Positions 2,213 to 35,577 of a DNA stretch of 64,000 nucleotides are shown here, one piece after another. The notes beneath the pieces were generated by a model. That model worked only from the letters and a program-made list of their open reading frames with translations, was not told where the DNA came from and did no database searches. Numbering within the stretch: the stretch's first letter is position 1; each line of letters begins with the position of its first letter. Source of the DNA: Clytia hemisphaerica (lineage: Eukaryota; Cnidaria; Hydrozoa; Leptothecata; Clytiidae); contig CACVBU010001120.1 in the NCBI GenBank assembly GCA_902728285.1, positions 1,426,001 to 1,490,000 of the forward strand, written 5' to 3'. Position numbers and translations under genes: made by a program.

Positions 2213-4869
2213 TCAAGCTACGAACTTCAATTTATTGTCTTTCTGTTGTTGCTGTTTTTTCTTTTCCTTCTTTCCAGTTTTATTCTTATTTTTGACGGTC
2301 TGTTGGCTCTTGTCATTTTTCTTGTCCTTAGCCTTCTTTCCTTTAGGCAATTCTTGACCTTCTTTCGTTATGACCGGTATACTCTCATCATCCTCGTCAT
2401 CATCTCCGCTCTCAGTATCATCATTTTCGTCTTCTTCATCTTCATTCCCCTTTTCTTTGTTTTCCAAATCCTTCTCTTCCTTCTCCGCTTTCTTCACCTC
2501 TTCGTAAATACTTTTCGCTTCTTTGTATGATTCACGAACGCATAACTTGTTCTCACTTGATCTAGAATGTAGGAGGAATGAAAAAATTCATAAAAGTAAA
2601 GTAAGTTTTCCACCAAAAAGAGGCTACAGGTTCGAGGTAGCTTTTCTTAAATGTTATTAATCAGCTGAAAATTTTAATTTTGCTCCAAAGTAGAAAAAGA
2701 AAATAATCATTTTTCGAACTATTAATTCCTGAAGATAACATTTGCGATATCTGCATTTTTGACTATTTGAAAAGCTAGATTTTCTCTTCTTACCCAACTA
2801 GAGCACACTTGAGTCCTCTAGCGCACGGATTGATTTTCTCATCATTTCCCGAAGCAGTATTGATTATTCCTCCACATACGGCACCTTCGTTCATTTTTGG
2901 CGTACAGAATTTGTCTTCTGATAAGAGATTACCGAGATTGATACAATTCATATCGGCTTCACAATCTTTGGCTGTATTACACAATGTCCCTGAAAAGAAT
3001 GTCAAATATTATTGATTGATGTTAGATATTTACTGAGAGAATTTAAATAGTGATCTAATTGCTGCGAATTGCGCTTTGAGGCTCAGAGGGAAAACAAACT
3101 GTGATTTCCGAGTGTTGGTGTTAAGACCATATTTTAAACAACGAAGAGTAGATAACCCCAAGGTACTATAATTAAATTGTACCTGACTCTCCATTATTGG
3201 CTTTATTGCAGATTCCCCAAACACACTTCAAATCTTTTTCACAGTTCTTATTTGCCATGCATTCAAAACCTTCACCAAGGCGTGGTACACATTTCCCAAT
3301 GTCCTCATCACAAAATTCACTAGATTTACAGCTTGATTTACACTGAAAAGAAAAAGACTTTAATTGTATTTTCAGTTTTATAGGTCAATCCCGGGGGGAG
3401 GGGGTTTGCGAGATGATGGCGGGTATATCCAAGCCAAAGTTCGAAAGTCAGTCCTTAAAGAGACTCAATTACTTTTTGATGGGATGATTTTTGTACCACT
3501 TGGAGGGATTTTCGAGGATGTGAAAAAAGGACCATCTTATCGCTCGCACATGCGTTAACCATTTTTGCCGGGGTTCAATTAAAACCTCAATTTCTATTAA
3601 TCCAAGTTTTATTCTTAAAAAAACCTTAATCGGTCCAACCTTCTTATCAGGTGATATAAAACTAAAAAGCTGAAATTACAAAAACCTATATTTTAAAGGA
3701 AAAGTCAGTTAGAGAAAGCCCTGTCCAAAAATTAGCATTTCCAGGGAGCATTTTTATTATCAAGTCATCAGTGTTCAGTCATGGATCATTTAGTTACTTT
3801 TACCTCTTTCTTCGTCATCTTGGAGTCCGGTCTCATTAAGTTTCCAAGCATTGGAACACCACCTAAAAGCAATGATCCAATGTTTGGGAATTTTCCTTCT
3901 TTTCCAGCGGTGTTTGATGAAAGACCTCCTTTGGATGATTTGAATGCGCTCTCTTCGTGAACCATGAAATTTGGGCCGTTGATGTTAGTTGTCTTGACAA
4001 CGGTACCATCTAAAAAATAATTTGTTGTAGTATATTATAGTTGCCTTCACCTCTTCGATTTTCTTTGAAGCACAAACTTCGGCTACGTTATATTTTCTGT
4101 TGTTTTTTGAGCGTAAAACTCCTTATTAAAGCCTGTCTATTAAAGCGTATCGACTTTTCGTGCTGTCTGTCAGTAATAATGACGTCAAGAGACAAAATAA
4201 AATTGTCACTATTACATTTGTTTAAATTTAATTAAAAGCTCATTTCAATGTTTTGGAAAATCACTCCCACATATTGTTCTTACGGCATTCTGAAGTTTTG
4301 GTTACCAGTTGACATGGAAGTGTGCACGCGGTATGCAAGGAACTCAAAGTGTCAAAGTGACAATATAGTGGGCTAGTCTTTTAACTCGTCTTCATTTTCA
4401 ACTATTGTGGGATGACAGGAGAAGTGGATTTCTTTGTGTGGGAAATCTCTTTGAAAAATTGAATGACTGTCCAGGAACCTCGTTTCTGTTCCAGACTCAA
4501 TCGCCCTTAGTTTCAGCAAATCAATTTTTCAAATAAGTATCTCATTTATCATCAACAAATCATCAATGTGACCCAAATCACAAAAATCGAACCAAAAGAC
4601 TGTTTGACATTCCAATACATAATCTTAAAGTTGTAAAAATTCTTACCTTTCAGCTTCTTTTTACTTGTGGTTTTATTGACCTTAGCTCCATCTACACTAG
4701 GTAAAGCCATTCTAAGACCAGCTTCTGGTAATGCAAAATCATCTGAACCAAAAGATGGTATTTCTGGTAAAGCGAAATCGGTAAATTTTGAAAACGGGAA
4801 ACCGAATTGTGGTAATCCATTTATGGAATAAATGCAAAGACAAAGAAGAGAAAATAGACGAAACTCCAT
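2213..4869 (-). CDS. Secreted protein with two eight-cysteine modules and a charged tail
   Basis: Five exons on the minus strand join in phase into 377 aa: 4869-4647, 4009-3804, 3342-3183, 2989-2794 and 2561-2213. All junctions are GT-AG. Residues 1 to about 18 are a signal peptide (MEFRLFSLLCLCIYSING). Residues 19-143 are a linker rich in Phe, Pro, Ser and Gly. Exon 3 (residues 144-196) carries cysteine module 1 and exons 4-5 (200-269) carry module 2. Both modules share the order C-[VT]-P-x4-G-x2-C, then C-x3-L-K-C, so they look duplicated. The tail is strongly acidic and then rich in Lys and Gln. The modules recall Dickkopf N-terminal or EB-type domains but lack the CC pair of Dickkopf, so I give no family name. 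Role is unknown; an extracellular ligand, inhibitor or matrix protein is plausible. The exon structure is very secure and the function is not. Confidence 0.88.
3390..3573. mobile_element. Degenerate G-run TIR element (family B) in an intron
   Basis: It starts with CCCGGGG and a G-rich stretch, then TGCGAGATGATGGCGGGTAT, and ends in CGCTCGCACATGCG...CCGGGG. This is the layout of the family B copies at 18876, 15159 and 52381. It lies in intron 2 of the secreted-protein gene. The flanks GTCAAT and TTCAATT are only roughly alike, so the target duplication has decayed or is not real. Confidence 0.5.
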
Positions 4870-4901
4870 ACTGTAATTGTTTCTTTTTTTCCTTTTCCTT
4901 G

Positions 4902-4909
4902 TATATATT
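4902..4909 (-). promoter_or_regulatory. TATA-like box of the two-module secreted gene
   Basis: Read on the minus strand the site is AATATATACAAGG, about 35 bases upstream of the start codon whose first base is 4869. The distance leaves only a very short leader, so the core-promoter role is an inference from position and motif. Confidence 0.45.
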
Positions 4910-5240
4910 TCTCCGCTAGTTTTTCATCTAACCAGAGAGAAACTCTATCGATCTCTAAAGCATTTGTTTGGGTAGTAAACCAACAATAGCACGCAAATTA
5001 TCATACTGAAAGTGTGCTCTAAAAATCAAAATGCTCAACAAAAATCGAACGGTGCTTAAGTTGTTCGGTTTTCATTGGTTAATATACAACAGTGCTCAAC
5101 AGTGCTCAGCACTTGCTCAGGATGAGCTGGGACTAATAATTGAAAACGTAAAATATAAATTTCTCGCGCAATATCTTTATTTTGCTTAGAAATCTAACCT
5201 AGCTTGATCCATCAACAAGCTATATGCTAAGAGACCTAAG

Positions 5241-8913: not shown

Positions 8914-10033
8914 ATGCTAGTCATTTACAGTAAGTCTTTTCACTCGTGTGTTGTTTTTATTATTTACACAATTTTTCAGAATTTATTTTTGGTCAAAGGC
9001 TTACATACAGAAATGAACCTCGCTCTTAACCACAAGAGACATAACAAACCTAAATCTTGTTACAACAACATTCAAAGTAGATGTAGGGGGATAGTAAGCA
9101 CATAATTTAGCCCTGTTGGCAGTACAGTGTCTGAATCGTAGACCTCTGAAAAGCCGAATATAATATAAAAGCACGAATTTGTTAGTCGATGCCAGCAACC
9201 TAGCAGTATATGAATATGAAAACCAAACAGTGGTGGAGTTAAAAAAAATAACTGTCAACCATCATTATTTTAGTCCCGGGGTGCACTTCTTCTTTCAAAA
9301 GTTATCTCACTTCTTAAATCATCTCCTCTCAGGGGCCCAATGCAAAGGTCTGTTCCGTTTAATTTATTCTGATTTTTACTATGCATTTATTTCTCGGACA
9401 GGTCTTCTTTCCTTCCTTTGTTGTATTGCAATGTCATCCCAACAAGCACCATCTTCAACTTTCTTCAAAAGTCGCTTCACAGGATTATTCAAACAACAAA
9501 ACTCTCAACAAAAACAACAACAGCAACAACAACAACAACAACAGCAGCAACTAACACTACAGGATTTACAAAGATTCCGAAAACCTGATCAAAGGTTACA
9601 AATTGGAGATACACAACAAATTCTTCTAGATGATGAGAAACAACCATTAATCCAACAGTTATCCACAGTTAAATCAAAGAATGCAAATTCACCACAATTC
9701 GTACAATCATTAAAAAAGAAGCAACGCACAGATCCAACTCTAGTGGTAGCTTCCAAACGAGCTGGTCCGACATGTCGCCAATACTGTGAAAGTCTATACG
9801 ATCAATGTCTTTCTATAGTTTACCGTATCCCAGGGCAGCTGGTGTGTCTTAACAGCGTACATAGGTGTCGAAGGGGGTGTACGAAACGAGTCAAAGACAT
9901 GATGAAGTCCAATGATTTCTTTTCATCTTCCACTACGACCAAAAGCATCCTGGTTCGTAAGAATGACAAACATCGAGTCACTTTCAATCAAGCTGCTGTT
10001 GGCAGAAAAAATACTGGACGCAAAACATTTTAA
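8914..10033 (+). CDS. Secreted precursor with mirror-image six-cysteine motif
   Basis: Two exons are proposed: a 16-base exon 8914-8929 (ATG, five codons, one extra base) with a perfect donor GTAAGT, and exon 9402-10033 after the acceptor TCTCGGACAG. The splice keeps phase and yields 215 aa starting with the signal peptide MLVIYSLLSFLCCIA. Without this splice, translation could start at 9431, which would lack a signal. A Gln run encoded at about 9500-9549 follows, then a spacer. Next comes C-x3-C-x6-C-x12-C-x6-C-x3-C (residues 130-165, bases 9773-9880), bracketed by KR pairs at 124-125 and 167-168. The tail is basic and rich in Ser and Thr. The KR pairs would suit release of a peptide of about 41 residues, which is an inference. 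The spacing suggests two helices locked by disulphides. It resembles the last six cysteines of the gene at 24886-26410. No family recognised. Confidence 0.75.
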
Positions 10034-18413: not shown

Positions 18414-20279
18414 ATGATGTCTTTCTTGATTGAAAATTTGTTGAAAGATAAGAGCAGTGAAAGGAAAGACCACGATAAAAGCAGAGATCAACTCACACCA
18501 CCTGCTACTCCAACTAAAGATGATTCTTCAAGACCGAAGCTAGAAGGTAAGTTTTGTGACTTTTGTGACTTTTTTTGACGAAATTGGTTTTTAGAATGCA
18601 TAATGGTTCTCGAAATTTGTTCTCTAAATGCATTTTGAATATTCTCTACCAATATATATGCTTCATATGCTTCAGTCCTATAAAAATTGTACTGTCAATG
18701 ATGGAGAATTTAAAAACGAATGCGGGTTCAGCCTGCACATTGATAGTTGTGGTAGCAAGAATTTTTTGGTTTCATTTTTCTGAAGTATAGATACTAACAA
18801 GAAGGAAAATATCAGTATATCATTACACCATTCACCATTTTATTTTCATACAAAGGAATACCCTTTCTTCGCTTTCCCGGGGGGGGGGGGGGGTACTTAG
18901 GCAAAAATGGATGATGGGTATGTGCGGACGGTAAGGGTCATTTTTTTCACCTTTCAAACTAAGGGTCGGAAAAATCAGAAAGTTTTAAATTAGTCTCTCT
19001 AAGGGTCACCTTTTCAGCAAAAATCAGTCTCTCTAAGGGTCGAAGGTCCCGTCCGCACATACCCCTCATTCGCCAACCCTAGTACCCCCCCCCCGGGTTC
19101 GCTTTTTATGATTCTTATAGCACTCACGATTGTATCACGTGCATAAGTAAAATAAAAACGTGGTGCAAGTGGCTCTTGTTAGTTTGCGAGATTGAAAATT
19201 ACAGAGTTCTAAATTCTTAATATTTTTAAAATTTAGATTTATCAGACATCGAACTTTCCAGTGTGGACGAAGATGATTTACAAGACTCATATTCAAAGAA
19301 ACGAAGGATACTTTTCACACGCCAACAGACATGGGAACTGGAAAGAATTTTTCGACAACAACCTTACTTATCTTCACCAGAACGTGAAGTATTAGCAAAG
19401 AAAATCAACTTGACTCCAACGCAAATTAAGATATGGTTTCAGAATCATAGGTATGTAGCGTCAGGATTTAACTTCTCGTTGTTGGTTTCCAGTTGGGCCC
19501 ACAGCGTTGTTTCAACATTCATCTAACGTTGGACGGGGTTACAGATATTAGATAGATTTTGATGGTAATATCAATCTCCATCAAGTTTCAGTCCGTTATT
19601 TTTACCCCAACTGACTGAAAAAATCCTACTGGATCTGTGAAAAGGGGGTGTATTAATATAGTATGTATTAATTCAAATTATAAATTTTTATATTTGAAAA
19701 TTTTAAGAAATTAAATCAATTATTTTCAAATAATGAATAATTTTTCTTAATATTTTTCATAGATACAAAATGAAGAAATACATGAAGGACATGATTCAAC
19801 AAGCTGAATATGAATGGCAAAAACAGAAGAACGATCGTTACAATCCAATGCACTCACCACATCGGAAACTCTCAGCTTCAAGTCCTCCATATCACAACCC
19901 TCACAGATCCTCATACTATAGTCGCCCATCATATCTATCAACTCCACCCTCCTTTCATCGCCCCCGCCCTTATCCACCAAGAAGCAGTATCTCAGATTAC
20001 ACGCCCTCCTCGTCAATATCCAGTTATCCATCAACGCCAAGCACGCCCCAAGAATCGCCCCGTAAATCACCCTATTGGTCTTCAAGCAGCAGTTGCCCGC
20101 CCTCTTTATCACTTTCTACTTCTACTGATAAACTTGTTTTCAACTTCAAGAAGGATGACCTATACAAACATTCACCTACTAATTCGTTGAGATCTTCAGT
20201 GCATTCAAGTTTTGGACCTCACGAACATTTAAAGAAAAAATGGTGTAGTTGCTGTCCTCCAAATATAGAGCGTCCATAA
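18414..20279 (+). CDS. NK2-class homeobox transcription factor
   Basis: Three exons join in phase to 287 aa: 18414-18546, 19237-19450 and 19763-20279. Donors are GTAAGT and GTATGT; acceptors end in TTTAG and CATAG. An in-frame stop at 18396 bounds the start, and ATG at 18414 and 18417 are equally possible. The homeodomain spans residues 64-123, with W111, F112, N114 (position 51), R116 and the NK2-diagnostic Tyr117 (position 54) in [13 protein letters not shown]. An intron splits the Arg codon at homeodomain position 53. The N-terminus ([10 protein letters not shown], residues 3-12) could be an Eh1/TN-like repressor peptide, which is weak. The C-terminal half is rich in Ser, Pro and Tyr and has no recognisable NK2-specific domain. 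It should act as a sequence-specific nuclear regulator. Class is secure; the orthologue (Nkx2.1, 2.2 or other) is not decided. Confidence 0.93.
18876..19097. mobile_element. TIR element, family B, in homeobox intron 1 (222 bp)
   Basis: The ends are CCCGGGGGGGGG...GTACTTAGG and CCCTAGTACCCCCCCCCGGG. A longer imperfect foldback reaches the GTATGTGCGGACGG/CCGTCCGCACATAC pair. The flanks TTCGCTTT (18868-18875) and TTCGCTTT (19098-19105) are an exact 8-bp duplication. It is the cleanest family B copy and lies in intron 1 in sense-neutral form. Confidence 0.88.
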
Positions 20280-24885: not shown

Positions 24886-26410
24886 ATGAAGATTGCTTTA
24901 CTTTTCCTTTTCGTTGCCGTAGCTTTTGCTGAAATACCTTTTGATGGTAAGTTGGTACTCTATTTTTCATCTGTCTCAGGTCCATTTAGCTTCAAGTCTA
25001 CTCTTTAACCCGAATGGATTTGTACTGTAGTGTTATCCTGACGAAATAAGATCTTCTACAGATCGCTGACGCTGTTTCAACGTACATCTTACATTATATG
25101 GATGTTTTGTAAGTTGTAGTGTTTGACTGTTGATCTATGAAGAGTCTTTGGAAAGAGGATTTTATCAGATATTTCAAAAGCTTTTCATATGAGAAATCAT
25201 TTAAAACTCGTTTTTCATTTTCCAATAGAAATCGAAGAAGAAGAAGGATCAGGCCACGTCAGTGTAAGTACAATTTCCAAACCTCTCGGTCCTGCTTTTC
25301 AAAAAAATTGACACTAACAAGTGTTTAAAATTCAAATTAGTCAGAAATTTTATCACTTGCACTATAATATGCGAATGAAGGGAGTGACTACTGGTTAATT
25401 TCACAACACGAGAAACGATGGGTGTCATTATACCACCATATAATGGGGCTGTCCCGTTAAATATCCAAGGGATAGTCTTATCTGGTAAACGATGCTCATT
25501 CATCTAATTATCCTTACAAAAAACTGATTTAGACCAAACTTATACCACAATTCCAAAGACTTTCATAACACCCTCTTGAAATTCTTCTCGGAAAAACACC
25601 CTGAAAATGTCCATTCCACCTTTTACGAATACCAAATGGAACCTGATCTAATTTAATGACATCATCTTTATTGTCATGTAGTGTCGTCACGAATTCCGTG
25701 AATGTGCAAAGGACGCCGAAGGAGACCGTCAAAAATTCTATGTCTGTTTGGCCAAATATTTTGGATGTAAACATGATGAACGAATGGAAAAGATCAAACA
25801 CTGCATCCACAGAGTAAGCGAAACCTTTTTTTAAAAAAGATACCTTAGCACCGAGTTCTTTGAATGGAAAATTACGTTTTCTACTCTACTAGTATTAACC
25901 CCTCAGCTGAGAAAATCACATATCACATATCAGTACTCTTAAAGAAAATACAAATCACTTTTGCTGAATATTAAGTTTTAAAGTAAGTAATCCTTCAAGT
26001 AAATTTAAAATGTTTTTAAGCCCCTACCATTTTCTAAACGAATACAACTTTTCGAGTGCCACTTTATTATTAAATTATTAAATTATCCCTGAATTCGATC
26101 CAATCCTTTTTTTACACCTTTTTCTATTGTATATAGGTGCGAAAAAAAGGCTGAGACGGTTTTAGGGTGGTAAAACCGGCAAAAGAATGCCCACGCGGCA
26201 ATAGGCGGCGGCTACGTACGAAAATTATTTAGTACGGAAGTCACACACGAAAAAACATCGCTAACATTGCCCTTATTTATTCTAAAGTTTTTTTTTCGCT
26301 TTTAGTGTTACCAAGAGCGCCAGACTTGCCGTAGCTTCCGATTTATCTGTGACATGAGACTCCGACATTGCAAATACAACTGCTACAACATGAGAAGATC
26401 AGAAGAATAA
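24886..26410 (+). CDS. Small secreted ten-cysteine protein
   Basis: Four exons join in phase to 110 aa: 24886-24946, 25229-25263, 25682-25813 and 26306-26410. Donors are GTAAGT, GTAAGT and GTAAGC; all acceptors end in TAG. Residues 1-15 (MKIALLFLFVAVAFA) are a signal peptide. Residues 16-32 are acidic, with four Glu in a row. The rest is a cationic cysteine domain with Cys at 33, 40, 54, 61, 73, 77, 84, 91, 98 and 102, giving spacings 6, 13, 6, 11, 3, 6, 6, 6, 3. Exons 3 and 4 each begin with a Cys codon at phase 0, so the cysteine modules follow exons. The last six cysteines repeat the C-x3-C-x6-C ... C-x6-C-x3-C plan of the gene at 8914. An acidic pro-part before a basic cysteine domain recalls defence peptide precursors, but no family was recognised. 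Confidence 0.88.
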
Positions 26411-26886
26411 GATGATCAAAATATATTCTACGTATTTCATGAATTTTTTTAAATTTGTCGTGAAAAAAGAAGAAAATGAATTTATTCCAAGAACATAGAT
26501 TTTAATTGTCACTTCATCTAATGACCTGAAGGTTACACATCCTCATATATCTAGTTACCAATCGATTATAAGTTTGTCAGGTTTCACTCATTCCTCTTAA
26601 AAAAAGAAATAGTAATAATTGTAATCGTAGATCTGACATCCACAAATCCTGCTGAAAAATACCGTGACGGGACAATTGCCCCCCGGATGTCAAAAGTAAA
26701 AAAAGATGTCAAAATTTATGGTGATCGAGTAACTCGATTTTAGCCTTAATGTTCTTATAAAAAACCTCATCTTTGAAATATCCTATTTTTTTTGAAGACG
26801 TTTTTTTAAGTTTCATGAATGAATGAATAAATAAATCACACCTGGGTTTTCTCGGAGCCAAGAATATTAAAGCGACAACATGAAAG

Positions 26887-27003
26887 AGCGTCCCAGCATC
26901 GTCCCACCATCGTCCCACTTGAGCGTCTCAGCATCCGAGCCAGCATCGTCCCAGCATCGTCCCACTTAAGCGTCCCACCTGAGCCACCGTCCCACGTCCC
27001 ACT
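26887..27003. repeat. CATCGTCCCA tandem repeat
   Basis: The words CAGCATCGTCCCA, CCATCGTCCCA and GAGCGTCCCAC recur about ten times in imperfect order. The array lies inside the TIR element 26670-27502. Confidence 0.8.
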
Positions 27004-27282
27004 TTTCCAGTAAGCCTTTTATTTTCATTTTGTTTTTCAATAACGGCCTATGTACATGGGAATTCAGTAAACACTTTTTTATAAGAAAATTTGCCAGAAA
27101 AATTATCGCTTATTTTTGAGATCGCTCTTTATTTGTTTTTGGTCACACATGATTGTTTTAAAGTGGGTATATTATGCAGACTTTTCTCTGTAATCGTCAA
27201 GTCTAAAGTCTAACAAGAAAAATAGTCAAAAAGACTAACGATCACCCGATCAAGAATTGTCTCAACGGTGATTGTCTTTTTT

Positions 27283-27502
27283 TTGGGGGGGGGGAGGGGG
27301 CAATTGTCCTGGGGGGGGGGAATTGTCCTGGAGGCAATTGTCTGGGGGCAATTGTCCTGGGGTAATTGTCTGGGGGCAATTGTCCTGGGGGCAGTTGTCT
27401 GGGGGCAATTGTCCTGGGGGTAATTGTCTGGGGGGAATTGTCCCGAGGGCAATTGTCCTGGGGGGAATTGTCTGGGGGAAATGTCACGGGGGGCAATTGT
27501 CC
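27283..27502. repeat. GGGGGCAATTGTCC minisatellite
   Basis: About fourteen units of 14-17 bases alternate between CAATTGTCCTGGGG and CAATTGTCTGGGGG, with A, G or T variants at the first base. The open frames of 68-111 codons on both strands here only translate the repeat. Confidence 0.9.
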
Positions 27503-29177
27503 TAGAACCGAAAAATACTTGCAAACAAATATAATCTACATCCAAATACGCTTTTTTTTATGTATAATTTGACAAGTTTTAGTCGGTGCTAATGGCGAGA
27601 AAAAGTTATCAAGGTCAATTTGCCTGAGTCTAGCATTCAGTTATACCTTAATGGACTACCGTTCGGACGGTATAAAGCTATGAGTAAATGCTGACATCGT
27701 TATAGTTGTAGGCGTTTAGATTATTGACTAAGTAAAGCTTTCCCCAGCACAGCATATACACATTCTATCAGCAAAAAATATTTCAGTGAATCTCATACCT
27801 CCCCTCTCAAGTTTAATAGCTATTTCACTCATTTGAACAAATATACATTTCAGAAATTAATATATCATGTCATTTATTTGCCTACGGAGCCTTGCTAAAC
27901 GTGTAGACCATCCGACGATGATTTTAAAGTCTGTTTCAAAATAATCTGCAACTCTTTATAGAATTTGAATTAGACCATATAGTCATATGATTAGATGGTG
28001 GTTTTTTGCTCGTTAAAAGGTATTCAAGAGTGGAATTTTATCCAAAAAAACGAAGAAAAAATTTAAAAAATGAAAGAATGAAGATGAAAAGTGAAGAAGA
28101 AGAACTTCAACTTCTTTAATAAGTGGCTATGATTATGATCTTCACACGATTGATTCTATCAAAAGTTATTGCCTTTTTTGTCTCCGCTGCAGACTAAATT
28201 GAGACAGACTTTAATTGTGTTTTACTAATTTGTCAGTCGGAATCAAAGTAATTTTCTTACCTATTGTAATATATCTTTCGCACTAGTTTTCACAACAGAT
28301 GATACGATATTCTCAATTCAAGGATAGCAAAGTTGGAAAAGGATTATCCTGGAGTTTAAAAAATATCTTTCAGGGTAAAACTCTCGTATTACTGGGAGTC
28401 ATTTCAATAAAATTTCTTTCACATAGATCTATGTTGATCGAACAAATATTTTTCCAAAATTTCATCGAAAAGTAGATAAATGTGGGAAATGAAGGGTGTA
28501 TTTTGAAGGGACGAGATGGAGTTTTTAGAAGCTCTTATTTGATTTGGTTGGTTGTTAACCAGTAATTAATCAATTTTGTTACTTTTTCTAAAGAATTCGT
28601 CATTTTTATTACTTCAAATGACCAATTATTAAAGTATTAAACTCCATCTCATCTGATTTGAAAAAGGAAGCCTCTAGACTGAAGTTGATAAAGTGTTTAC
28701 ATTTTTGGATTGTTGTATTTTCTATTAAAACGATAATTTAAATTAAATTCCAATCAATGATATGATTCAGCCATGGTAAATAAAAAACAAAAGTTTAGTT
28801 AGTTTCACATTTCTTTGATGCTGAAACTTTGATGAACCATTAGAAACTTACAGGAATTGAATTTTAACAACTCTATAGGCAGATGATAACACACATTTAA
28901 TCAAGATTTCGAATAATCATTTCAGAGAATGTCAAGAGAGAACAAAAGAGAATTAGCAAAAATGTCTACAGTAGTAAAAATAAAAATTATATACCCGCCA
29001 TTATATATATGTTACAAATTGAAACAAACAAACAAAAAAGTGAAATTAGCAAAAAAAGGACCTCAGAAAGGTAATCGTAATGGAAAAACTATAAATCACA
29101 AGACTATCTATAAAATGTTCACCATAGAGAGCATACCTGATATAAGGTGAGATGAGATAAAAAGGTGAATGTAGAGT
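27503..29177. other. Intergenic, nothing recognised
   Basis: AT-rich, without splice-supported exons. The plus frame at 28929-29150 is Lys-rich and has no domain. The right end should include the 3' untranslated region of clathrin light chain. Confidence 0.45.
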
Positions 29178-30634
29178 CTATCGAATTAATGGGTTTTGTT
29201 TCAATTGTAACAAGATGCTTCTCATGCGTCCAACATCCTTTGTATTTTTACTATTTTTAGGGTTGAAATCACAGAATCTGGATACTTTCTCCCATTCGTT
29301 GCCTGGCTTCGTATCGGTCATTTCTTCAATGAATTGCTCTTCGGCCGATCTGTTTTCCGTTTTGGTTTTATCGAGTTGTTCATTGTAATGGTTGTACCAG
29401 TCGTCTAATTCTTTCTTGGCACGTTCTGTCCATTGTTGATGGTTCTCCACTTCTTCTTCCTCCTGTTGAAAGAAGATGAAGAATATGAGAAAGATAAGAC
29501 TTAAAGCAACACAATTTGGGAAAATTCTTGACTTGTAGAAGCAGGTAGAAGACAGGGTAGGGTGTAAATTCTGAGGCAGACAGTTAGGAATATGATAACA
29601 GGGTTGAATAATTTTCACATAGAAATCCCATTGTTTTGGGTGAGTACGATGTTTTTCAAAATTTCCCCTTTAGAATTTGTTGTCACTTAAGTTATTATAT
29701 AAAATGAACTGATTCCAAAATTAAATTTAGATTGGATGGTCATACGTCAAAATTATTTCTCGCCAAATTTAATTGTTGTTCAACTTAGTCCAGATTTTCC
29801 CTAAAAAGACCCTCATTTCTCCTTTTCTCAGCAAAAAAACTAACAAAATAAAGGGTAATTTGCCAAAACTAATTCTCGCCAAATTTAAAGAAGTTTCCTA
29901 GTTAGCCAAAATAAATACACGGGTTGCAAAATTATATCAGTGCAACCGAAACATGTGATTACTCGAAAAAAGTTAACGTGATTTTATTCCCATGTTACTT
30001 GCTTTACAACTTACAGCAGATAAATTTATTAGTGCCAATAAATCCGACCGAACCAATCAGAAATAAATGTCATGCAGTAAGCACATAAAAATTTCGAGTA
30101 AAAGCGTGATTTGTCTGAAGACTTTAATTTTGCAACATGTGTATTGTTCGAAAATTGGCAAATTGTCCCGCACACCGAAATGTCTTCTCTTCAAGGTATT
30201 TAAAGATCCTTTATTCCTTACTTTTAATCTTCTTTGGCCAAATCTTAATTAACCTACCCCATATAATCAAGAAGTAAACCATAATCATAATCAAATAATG
30301 TTAAAGAATAGAAATTTACCTGTTTTTGAAGTGAGTCAGCTTTTTCTTCGCGCCATTGTTTTAAAGATTCTGGTTCCTCGGCAGGTTGAATAGGGATGAT
30401 CGGAGCTGGTGCAGGTTCTGTAAATCCATTCATCACGGGTTCTTGTGGAGCTCCATCATCGATTGGTGCATTACCTAAATCCTCAAATTGACCCATTATA
30501 TCAGCACCGCCATTGTCAGGAGGTGGTGCTCCATCCTCACCGAATTGGTTTTCATCAATCCCAAGTTCACGAAGTTGATCTTCTTCTTGCTGTAAGAATT
30601 CAGCAGCTGGGTCATCTCCTAATAAGTCAGCCAT
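29178..30634 (-). CDS. CLTA/CLTB-like: Clathrin light chain
   Basis: Two exons on the minus strand, 30634-30320 and 29462-29178, join at phase 0 to 199 aa (donor CAG|GTAAAT, acceptor TTCAACAG). The family's conserved N-terminal block is present as DDPAAEFLQQEEDQL (residues 7-21). A Gly, Pro and Asp-rich stretch follows. Then comes the heavy-chain-binding helix from SLKQWREEKADSLQKQ (about 90-105) through WTERAKKELDDWYNHYNEQL (116-135). The C-terminal block NEWEKVSRFCDFNPKNSK and RMRSILLQLKQNPLIR closes the protein. Length matches the usual 200-250 aa. It coats vesicles with clathrin heavy chain and tunes assembly and Hip1 binding. The intron cuts the coiled helix after Gln105. A 170-bp copy of exon 1 lies upstream at 31164-31333. 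Confidence 0.95.
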
Positions 30635-31163
30635 TTTATTATTTTTGTTTTTTATTCAGAGAATTGACTAAAATAAAAAATAACTTTAAATTACTACTTT
30701 TGTTTGAGACGATAATTTATAATTTTAAAGGTATAAATAGTTAGTCCCTTTGAAAAAAGTTTGTGTTTTGAGGGAAGAGGCCAGTTTGAATGCCAAGAGG
30801 GGGACTTAAACAGGAGACCAACTGAAAGCCACGCAAGGCACAAAAAAAATCACACTTTCTCTTTTATCATTGGTTATTTCTAGTTCGAGGAGGATAATTT
30901 TGAGGCATAACATGTCCTGTTCACAAATCAGAGTCTTAAAGATAGTACCTTCTTTCCTCAACCCCCCTTGGAATTTAGGAACACTGGACTCATACCAGGC
31001 TAATATGGTGTGGCTTCAAGGAGCCGAAACAAAAAATGTACTGAATCACTACTATGAGTAAAATTAAAGATCTCTACAGCCATGAAGGGCCAAATGTCCA
31101 ACAGTCTGGGAAATCCTCTTTTAATAGGGAAAAGCTGACCCATCCACCCATATCCCAAAACGT

Positions 31164-31333
31164 TGGTGCAGGTTCTGTAAATCCATTCATCACGGGTTCT
31201 TGTGGAGCTCCATCATCGATTGGTGCATTACCTAAATCCTCAAATTGACCCATTATATCAGCACCGCCATTGTCAGCAGGTGGTGCTCCATCCTCACCGA
31301 ATTGGTTTTCATCAATCCCAAGTTCACGAAGTT
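31164..31333 (-). pseudogene. Copied fragment of clathrin light chain exon 1
   Basis: These 170 bases equal 30407-30576 of the real exon except one base, which changes a Pro codon to Ala in GAPPPDNGGAD. The copy runs in the same orientation, 757 bases from the source. It lacks the start codon, the first 19 codons and the end of the exon. Minus-strand reading is open through it, but no splice sites flank it cleanly. The identity implies a recent duplication or an assembly artefact. Confidence 0.9.
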
Positions 31334-31978
31334 TATGAAAAACTGAATAAGCAATTATCTTTGTAAAAATATAATCGTGTCTTACACGATTCTGAATAAT
31401 CCATAACAACCCCACCCAGTAATGTCAATAGAGTGAGTAATAATTATTGGTTCTAGACACAAAGCCCTGACACTATTCCCACATACGTACTGGATCGAAG
31501 AATATATTTGTGTCTTACACATAAAATTGATTTGTGAGTGAGCCCTTAATAACACCTTAACTTCTGAGATTTACTAAAGATTTGAAAGCCTTGGCAGTTC
31601 AGACAGTCACACTAGCATCCCGCCGAAATGTGTATCAAAGATTAATGCTGCGAAAGCACTATATCGTTTACTTGGCTCGCAAGCAAAAAAAATACACCGC
31701 AAAACTTATAAAGGGATTCATTTACTGTGTCTACTTTGATTTTGCAAACACGTTTGATACAGTTCCTCACACGAGGTTGGTAAAGAAACTAGAATGTTAC
31801 GGTATCAGCGAAAATGTTAAAATGGATTACAGCTTTTTTATCAGACCAAAAGCAACTAGTCAAGGTTATCTCAGCTAAATCAACTACTGACCATGTCATA
31901 AGTGGAATTCCTCAAGGAAGCGTACTTGGGTCTCTGCTCTTTGTTATCTACATAAACGAAAAGGTATTCTTCGATGTA

Positions 31979-33570: not shown

Positions 33571-35577
33571 TTTCTCAAGAAACTTTTGAAAAATCTCAAC
33601 CCAAACAAAGCATCCGGTCCAGACAATATCTTCTCTAAATTCCTAAAGGAACTTGGTAATGAAATTGCACCTGGACTAACTTTGGTAATGCAGACATCCA
33701 TACTGCAGTCAATGACTCCAAAGGACTGGTGTCATGCCTTGGTTGCCCCAGTCTTCAAACCAGGAAAAACAGACCGAGCCAAAGCTGAAAACTACAGGCC
33801 AATAAGCCTAACATCAGTATCATGCAAGATATTCGAGCATATTCTTCACAGTAATATCATCTCCCACCTTGATAAAAACAACATACTAACTGATACATAA
33901 CATGGCTTTCGGAAAAATCGTTCATGTGAATCTCAGCTTTTACTCACCATTAATGACCTTACATAATCGCTTAATGAGGGAAAGTCAAATCGATTCCATC
34001 TTGCTTGATTTTTCAAAAGCATTTGACAAGGTAGACCATGACAAACTGTGCATTAAGCTCGATCACTACGGAATAAGAGGTAATACTCTCTCCTGGATTA
34101 GAAATTACCTTGCAAACCGAACGCAAACTGTACTTGTTAACAGCATGCGTTCAGACAAAGTCATGGTATTATCTGGTGTTCCCCTAGAGACAGTATTGGG
34201 ACCACTTCTATTTCTAGTATACATAAACGATCTACCATTGTGTGCGAACTCTCAAATTCGTCTTTTTGCGGGTGATGCTCTATTATACAGAAAAATTGAA
34301 TCAGTCAATGACGCTTATCAACTTCAACATGATCTAAATAATCTGATTGAGTGGGAAAGGCATTGGTCCATGGAATTCAATCCAGACAAATGCAAGGTCC
34401 TCAGAGTCACCAATAAGCCCAAAATCATCCTATCTGACTATTCCATGCATAACCAGATCCTTGAGCATGTTTACTCAGCTAAACAACTCGGCGTATTTAT
34501 ACACAAAAAGTTATCTTGGAATACCCATGTCAACTACACCTTGAAAAAAGCCAACCAAATCAGATGCTTCCTCCAGTGTAAACTGCGTACATGTAACCAA
34601 GTAATCAAGCTCCAAGCTTATCGTACCTATGTGAGGCTATTTTTGAATACGCATCAGTTGTCTGGGATCCTCATACTTCAGCAAACATATACCAATTAGA
34701 AATGGTCAAACGCAAGGCATCCAGATTTATATGTAATGATTGGAGATATTCCAGTAGTCCAACCACCATGATTCGTAATCTTAACCTTAAGATCCTCCAG
34801 CAAAGACAGCTTGAAACTAAACTGAACTACATGCATAAGATTCTACACGGTCGAATTGCTTGTTTATCTTCTCTTGTATGTCGTGCTCGTACCGCTAACT
34901 TAAAAATTATACCAATAAATGCACGAATCCAGTCGTATGAATACAGCTATGTCCCCTCAACAATTAGGCTGTGGAATGCCTTACCAACCCATATCGTCAA
35001 TGAAGAAGACCCTGATAAATTTAGCCTTAGCATTTCAAACTACGAATTTTAACTTGTGGAATTTTTTATTTTTTATTTCTTTTTGATTTTTACTTTTTTC
35101 TATCCTGAGCTAGTCCTTTTTGTCTCATGCGATTTTACTCTTTGTGTCTTGTCCCCATGCTTTGTCTTCTGTTTGAACAATTTTTGCGCCGTGTTTTCTT
35201 TTTTACTTAGCACTGCTGGCCTCATCACCTTTGTGGAATCATCGACATGGTTAATTTTAATATTTCAACTTAATATTTTTATCTTACATTTTGATATGAA
35301 AATATTTATTTTAATAGTTTTTAATTTCCAAATTACAAATAATAATTCCTACAATTTTTCTACTTAGCTTAGCATGTCATCGTCTCGTCCCAGCTCACTC
35401 TTACACTTTGACATTTTGAGTCTACACCTACTGTTGTGCTTTCCACATTTTCAGCAGTGTCTTAGAACATCTTGTGCTAATGTTTTTAACTTTTTATTTT
35501 ATTTTATCCTTTATGTTTAAAATCACGAAAATGTACGTAGTGTATTATGTGATAATTCAATAGAACTAGAACTAAAA
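33571..35577 (+). pseudogene. Second jockey/CR1-like LINE, 5'-truncated, inserted in the first
   Basis: The sequence reads NKASGPDNIFSKF, then NYRPISLTSVSCKIFEHIL, HGFRKNRSCESQL, LLDFSKAFDKVDHDKL and WIRNYLANRTQTVL. After these come VNYTLKKANQIRC, FEYASVVWDPHT, SRFICNDWRY and VPSTIRLWNALP. It is dead: an in-frame TAA at 33898, a shift near 33985 and a shift back near 34640. The GVPQGS box is changed to GVPLET and the catalytic ADD to AGD. It begins within the reverse transcriptase domain, so it is 5'-truncated. It ends near TAGAACTAGAACTAAAA at 35560-35577 after an AT-rich tail. The hydrophobic frame at 35056-35367 belongs to this tail. Confidence 0.88.

Follow-up and report, generated by a model that had tools for sequence, protein, structure and literature searches.

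In the 64,000-nucleotide stretch of the Clytia hemisphaerica genome analyzed here (the window; NCBI GenBank assembly GCA_902728285.1, contig CACVBU010001120.1, positions 1,426,001 to 1,490,000, forward strand), two genes, gene 1 at 8914-10033 and gene 2 at 24886-26410, encode putatively secreted proteins with a mirror-symmetric spacing of cysteines. The explanation that we favor, and to which we give about an even chance of being right, is that gene 1 encodes the secreted precursor of a helical-hairpin effector peptide, that gene 2 is a separate gene, and that the two share their spacing without common descent. In the proposed mechanism, the signal sequence of the gene 1 precursor would be removed first, following which cuts at two Lys-Arg sites would free a basic peptide of 41 residues, predicted to form two antiparallel helices joined by a ladder of three disulfides (C1-C6, C2-C5, and C3-C4). 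Such a peptide would most likely serve as an extracellular effector of nerve, gland, or stinging cells, e.g. as a toxin-like neuropeptide or a defence peptide. The secreted protein of gene 2 would be of another sort and restricted to its lineage, with an acidic first part ahead of a basic body that holds ten cysteines; defence or surface secretions would be its nearest likeness. The shared spacing would reflect the way in which gaps of 3 and 6 set cysteines on one helix face rather than common descent.

The cysteines of gene 1 read C-x3-C-x6-C-x12-C-x6-C-x3-C at 9773-9880 on the forward strand, and the last six cysteines of gene 2 read C-x3-C-x6-C-x6-C-x6-C-x3-C, both exactly as the first-pass annotation of this stretch had described them. 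The gene 1 plan is the sole match in the six frames of the window to C-x3-C-x6-C-x(4-16)-C-x6-C-x3-C, and 300 windows simulated with a matching dinucleotide composition yielded one match in total, a rarity that overstates the surprise, the pattern having been picked after it was seen. For given gap sizes, the mirror order itself carries little signal: when the gaps are kept and their order is shuffled, a palindrome results in 2 of the 30 orders possible in gene 1 and in 2 of the 10 possible in the six-cysteine end of gene 2, and of the 1512 orders of the nine gaps of gene 2, 32% contain a five-gap palindrome and 6.6% contain 3-6-n-6-3. The notable part is instead the gaps of 3 and 6. With this spacing, the cysteines of each gene 1 helix share one face, to within 40 degrees, and a single ideal helix would align the last six of gene 2 to within 60 degrees (their spacing also fits one continuous helix); this points to helices, and not by itself to common descent.

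Structure prediction, which had been proposed as a check on both domains, returned a hairpin for gene 1 and low-confidence strands for gene 2, and the antiparallel helices expected of both are thus supported for the former and not supported for the latter. The AlphaFold2 single-sequence model of the gene 1 domain (57 residues) has helices at residues 7-19 and 26-52 and a predicted local distance difference test (pLDDT) score of 70.9, i.e. it shows, with moderate confidence, a hairpin of two helices, whose packing is not seen directly; the spacing is compatible with a ladder of disulfides between the helices. The model thus has the two antiparallel helices and short turn of the disulfide-stabilized helical-hairpin scaffold, a known structural kind that gene 1 likely joins. 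The gene 2 model (pLDDT 55.4) has helices at 31-43, 48-59, and 67-82, followed by low-confidence strands at 86-92 and 97-103, so that its last six cysteines are modeled, at low confidence (block pLDDT 41-51), as a pair of strands and not as a helical hairpin. A fold search with this model, which is too poor for the purpose, gave nothing under E 6.3. It is also conceivable, if doubtful, that a single unbroken helix carries the six C-terminal cysteines of gene 2, which would then pair with the four preceding ones or with a partner chain, the mirror plan there not being a hairpin at all; their common face on an ideal helix and the mere six residues that a hairpin turn would hold are in keeping with such an arrangement, but one long helix is likewise absent from the model.

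Gene 1 encodes 215 residues in two exons, with a signal-like start, a polyglutamine tract, and the six-cysteine domain (net charge +3) between the two Lys-Arg sites (Table 1); the signal sequences of both genes were assigned by eye, without a predictor. The splicing of both gene models, with two exons for gene 1 and four for gene 2, came out as first annotated, and we consider gene 1 a good gene model despite its having no database record in the size ranges searched. According to a distinctly less likely view, gene 1 is non-functional, being either a relic in decay or a lengthy open frame in which the cysteine plan arose by chance. This would agree with the lack of a record in those size ranges and of any relative found, and with a Fickett-style base-position count, which over 9571-10030 surpasses the 95% level of the controls at a single base of the four, T, as opposed to three bases in the coding exons of gene 2. 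Its second exon, however, falls in a stop-to-stop frame of 289 residues that is longer than any other in the window, consensus splice sites bring the signal-like start into frame, and the plan is rare in the simulated windows. In addition, the content of guanine plus cytosine at the three codon positions 3' of the polyglutamine tract (0.48, 0.41, 0.31) resembles that of gene 2 (0.50, 0.35, 0.40) and of a homeobox exon in the window (0.44, 0.32, 0.31); the values for a piece of a clathrin gene are 0.71, 0.37, 0.24.

It should be noted that several observations weigh against a processed hairpin peptide from gene 1. A database query with the C-terminal part of the protein, over size ranges that together span about 61-376 residues, found no record of it, and since gene 2 is present in the protein database and gene 1 is absent, there is no support here for expression of gene 1. 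No relatives are known that show conserved cysteines or Lys-Arg sites, and an Arg-Arg pair inside the domain (residues 162-163) is a competing cleavage site. The structure model had one sequence as its input and has zero residues at pLDDT 90, and Foldseek found nothing for it under E 3.0; neurotoxin B-IV and acrorhagin, two hairpin toxins discussed below, were not among the Foldseek and VIA-align matches listed, which is uninformative either way. Finally, six cysteines need not mean a helical hairpin, as is illustrated by the bacteriocyte-specific cysteine-rich (BCR) peptides of aphids, among which BCR4, a member of another subfamily with a different spacing, folds as a helix plus strands and the disulfide pairing of BCR3 is given as unknown (PMC9604261).

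Gene 2 is identical to the database protein P0001 letter for letter (100%, 110 of 110 residues), which is recorded in NCBI, UniRef, and EukProt as "uncharacterized protein [Clytia hemisphaerica]" and was the only record found for it among three candidates in the protein database. The six-cysteine plan as first read has the right spacing; it is, however, a subset of ten cysteines in 110 residues (gaps 6, 13, 6, 11, 3, 6, 6, 6, 3), and an intron splits C73 in exon 3 from the other five in exon 4. Similarly, the description of both domains as basic applies to gene 1 and to gene 2 from its fifth cysteine, C73, to the end (+5), and not to gene 2 residues 16-110, whose net charge an acidic stretch of -7 in residues 16-32 brings to neutral; the segment C33-C61 carries +1. 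Directly 3' of gene 2 stand two adjoining tandem-repeat arrays (26886-27503; periods of approximately 11-36 and 14-29).

Table 1. Coordinates and supporting evidence for the parts of gene 1 and gene 2 (positions in the window)
Feature	Position	Strand	Basis or remark
Gene 1 exon 1	8914..8929	+	Start codon and first part of signal-like sequence; GT/AG splice to 9402 in frame
Gene 1 exon 2	9402..10033	+	Remainder of 215-residue precursor including stop codon
Gene 1 polyglutamine, 12 glutamines, residues 44-55	9515..9550	+	Translation
Gene 1 Lys-Arg site, residues 124-125, N-terminal of cysteine domain	9755..9760	+	Translation; putative cleavage
Gene 1 predicted 41-residue mature peptide, six cysteines (core 9773-9880)	9761..9883	+	Plan, length, helix-turn-helix model
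Gene 1 Lys-Arg site, residues 167-168, C-terminal of domain	9884..9889	+	Translation; putative cleavage
Gene 2 exon 1, signal-like sequence	24886..24946	+	Exact match to P0001
Gene 2 exon 2, most of acidic stretch	25229..25263	+	Splice model equal to P0001
Gene 2 exon 3, C33, C40, C54, C61, C73 (first four spaced 6-13-6)	25682..25813	+	Splice model, P0001
Gene 2 exon 4, C77, C84, C91, C98, C102 and stop; with C73, the mirror plan	26306..26410	+	Splice model, P0001

A shared family for gene 1 and gene 2, as their pairing had first suggested, is not supported: no sequence similarity is detectable between them (best BLASTP E 2.0), and homology of the two domains is therefore unsupported at the sequence level. 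Within the window there are no other copies of either domain, tblastn giving E <1 only for the genes' own exons. One could nevertheless imagine a single hydrozoan helical-hairpin family that arose by duplication followed by fast divergence, in which gene 2 holds two hairpins (C33-C61, spaced 6-13-6, and C73-C102, spaced 3-6-6-6-3) and gene 1 holds one. Both halves of gene 2 are indeed palindromic, its 6-13-6 resembles the inner 6-12-6 of gene 1, and the genes lie 15 kb apart on the same strand; against this, the sequences are dissimilar, the second half of gene 2 is not modeled as a hairpin, the exon counts differ (two versus four), and symmetry is common given the gaps, which makes this account quite improbable. 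Slightly more improbable still is its fuller form, in which one ancestor would have given rise to gene 1 as a one-hairpin propeptide and gene 2 as a fused two-hairpin protein, with a neuropeptide, toxin, or defence role.

The remark that no known family has exactly this plan holds, after database searches, at the level of sequence; the plan itself is known from aphid BCR3 peptides and the structural kind from the helical hairpins of Cnidaria. Neither gene has a credible match to a known sequence family in Pfam, NCBIfam, or the PDB. No Pfam family, that of the twin C-x3-C (CHCH) mitochondrial proteins included, matched gene 1 to E 10, and the Pfam matches of gene 2 to Raptor_N and DUF4372 are far below the cut-offs. 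PDB sequence searches to E 10 found nothing for gene 2; for gene 1 their sole matches were three sequences of Mediator subunit 29 (E 0.26-0.97).

The best reading of gene 2 is that of a separate orphan, a lineage-restricted secreted protein, and we consider it possible, at somewhat less than even chances, that it is an epithelial or larval secretion of antimicrobial or adhesive nature, with no toxin role. The antimicrobial peptides of Hydra are described as small, with a signal sequence, bipartite charge, and complex cysteines, and as forming multigene families (PMC10945409); the signal-like start of gene 2, its acidic part followed by a basic one, and its many cysteines fit that description, and the periculins in particular share with it the signal, the bipartite charge, and the complex cysteine pattern, although they form multigene clusters restricted to Hydra (PMC10945409). 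The planulae of Clytia, too, release cysteine proteins confined to this genus, PF1, for which no fold is known; PF1 is short and secreted, with conserved cysteines and no similarity outside Clytia, and it has several homologous genes and belongs to planula neurosecretory cells (PMC12225738). Both the Hydra peptide families and PF1 thus have several paralogues, whereas a search of the 417-Mb Clytia assembly with the 78-residue cysteine part of gene 2, in which the best candidates were scored exon by exon and diverged copies may be missed, found no second copy and no credible paralogue. Its five places are the two cysteine exons of gene 2 itself and three weak, unrelated rows (E 0.5-0.9), and the gene 2 plan is absent from the frames of both strands at those three loci. 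Gene 2 may plausibly work like the Hydra peptides or PF1.

The window also contains, on the reverse strand, what is possibly one secreted-looking gene at 2793-4923, comprising a cysteine exon that resembles Dickkopf_N (3178-3384; E 2.4e-5, which equals the Pfam cut-off), a second cysteine-rich frame (2793-3008), and, within the frame 4552-4923, a start that by eye resembles a signal sequence. The reverse strand also carries a clathrin light chain gene (29178-31424), whose exon frame 30254-30655 has been duplicated in part, recurring at 31074-31424 with an almost identical translation. On the forward strand are a homeobox gene (19230-20279; homeodomain E 2.6e-19 in 19230-19523), a retroelement reverse-transcriptase open frame (33890-34696; RVT_1 E 1.7e-14), and an open frame (443-1135) that matches tyrosine recombinases weakly, at a score below the cut-off (Phage_integrase, E 0.0035).

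If the gene 1 peptide is made, the helical-hairpin peptides, described so far in octocorals and sea anemones among the Cnidaria, would gain a case in a hydrozoan jellyfish used as a laboratory model, and the recruitment of such peptides from nerve to venom would become testable in Clytia. If it is not made, gene 1 would be an example of helix-facing cysteines yielding a mirror spacing without kinship.

With respect to known systems, C-x3-C is found at both ends in plant alpha-hairpinins and scorpion kappa-KTx, the latter having two disulfides and no middle pair. In both, the latter with its CS alpha-alpha motif, two helices are held by disulfides, and the two are considered convergent by the authors (PMC11722136); the alpha-hairpinins have four cysteines and two disulfides, versus six cysteines in the gene 1 domain. 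The literature matches listed for the spacing strings were mostly plant LOB/LBD proteins and also pannexins, the relevant ones being the aphid BCR peptides. BCR3 peptides are secreted and have six cysteines in the plan CX3CX6CX21-25CX6CX3C (PMC9604261), i.e. the same outer spacing around a center of 21-25 residues, as compared with 12 in gene 1 and 6 in gene 2; they belong to the aphid lineage only, and the likeness is one of spacing. Unproven as this is, we take the likeness to the gene 1 plan as convergence, which it would be if the gene 1 peptide is made.

Neurotoxin B-IV of a nemertean (PDB 1VIB) is a helical hairpin linked by disulfides (PMC6410017, PMC11722136), albeit with four disulfides and from another phylum. 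In acrorhagin I, a sea anemone toxin, disulfides likewise tie two helices together (PMC11896702, PMC11722136); there are four of them, one linking helix to loop (PMC11722136), a pattern matched neither by the six cysteines of the gene 1 domain nor by the ten of gene 2. The PDB codes given for it conflict, 6UX5 being acrorhagin in PMC11896702 and a plant peptide in PMC11722136, where acrorhagin is 2L2R. The octocoral helical-hairpin members share <20% identity with acrorhagin (PMC11896702). One of them, U-GRTX-Esi20 from Eunicella, comprises 48 residues released from a longer propeptide, with three disulfides and a helical-hairpin model (PMC11896702); it is likened to gene 1 by description, and the genes of its superfamily are intronless, unlike gene 1. 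No report of a hydrozoan helical-hairpin peptide was found among the open-licence papers listed. Both the mirror plan and the helical-hairpin kind are therefore already known, and gene 1 is likely a hydrozoan case of the latter.
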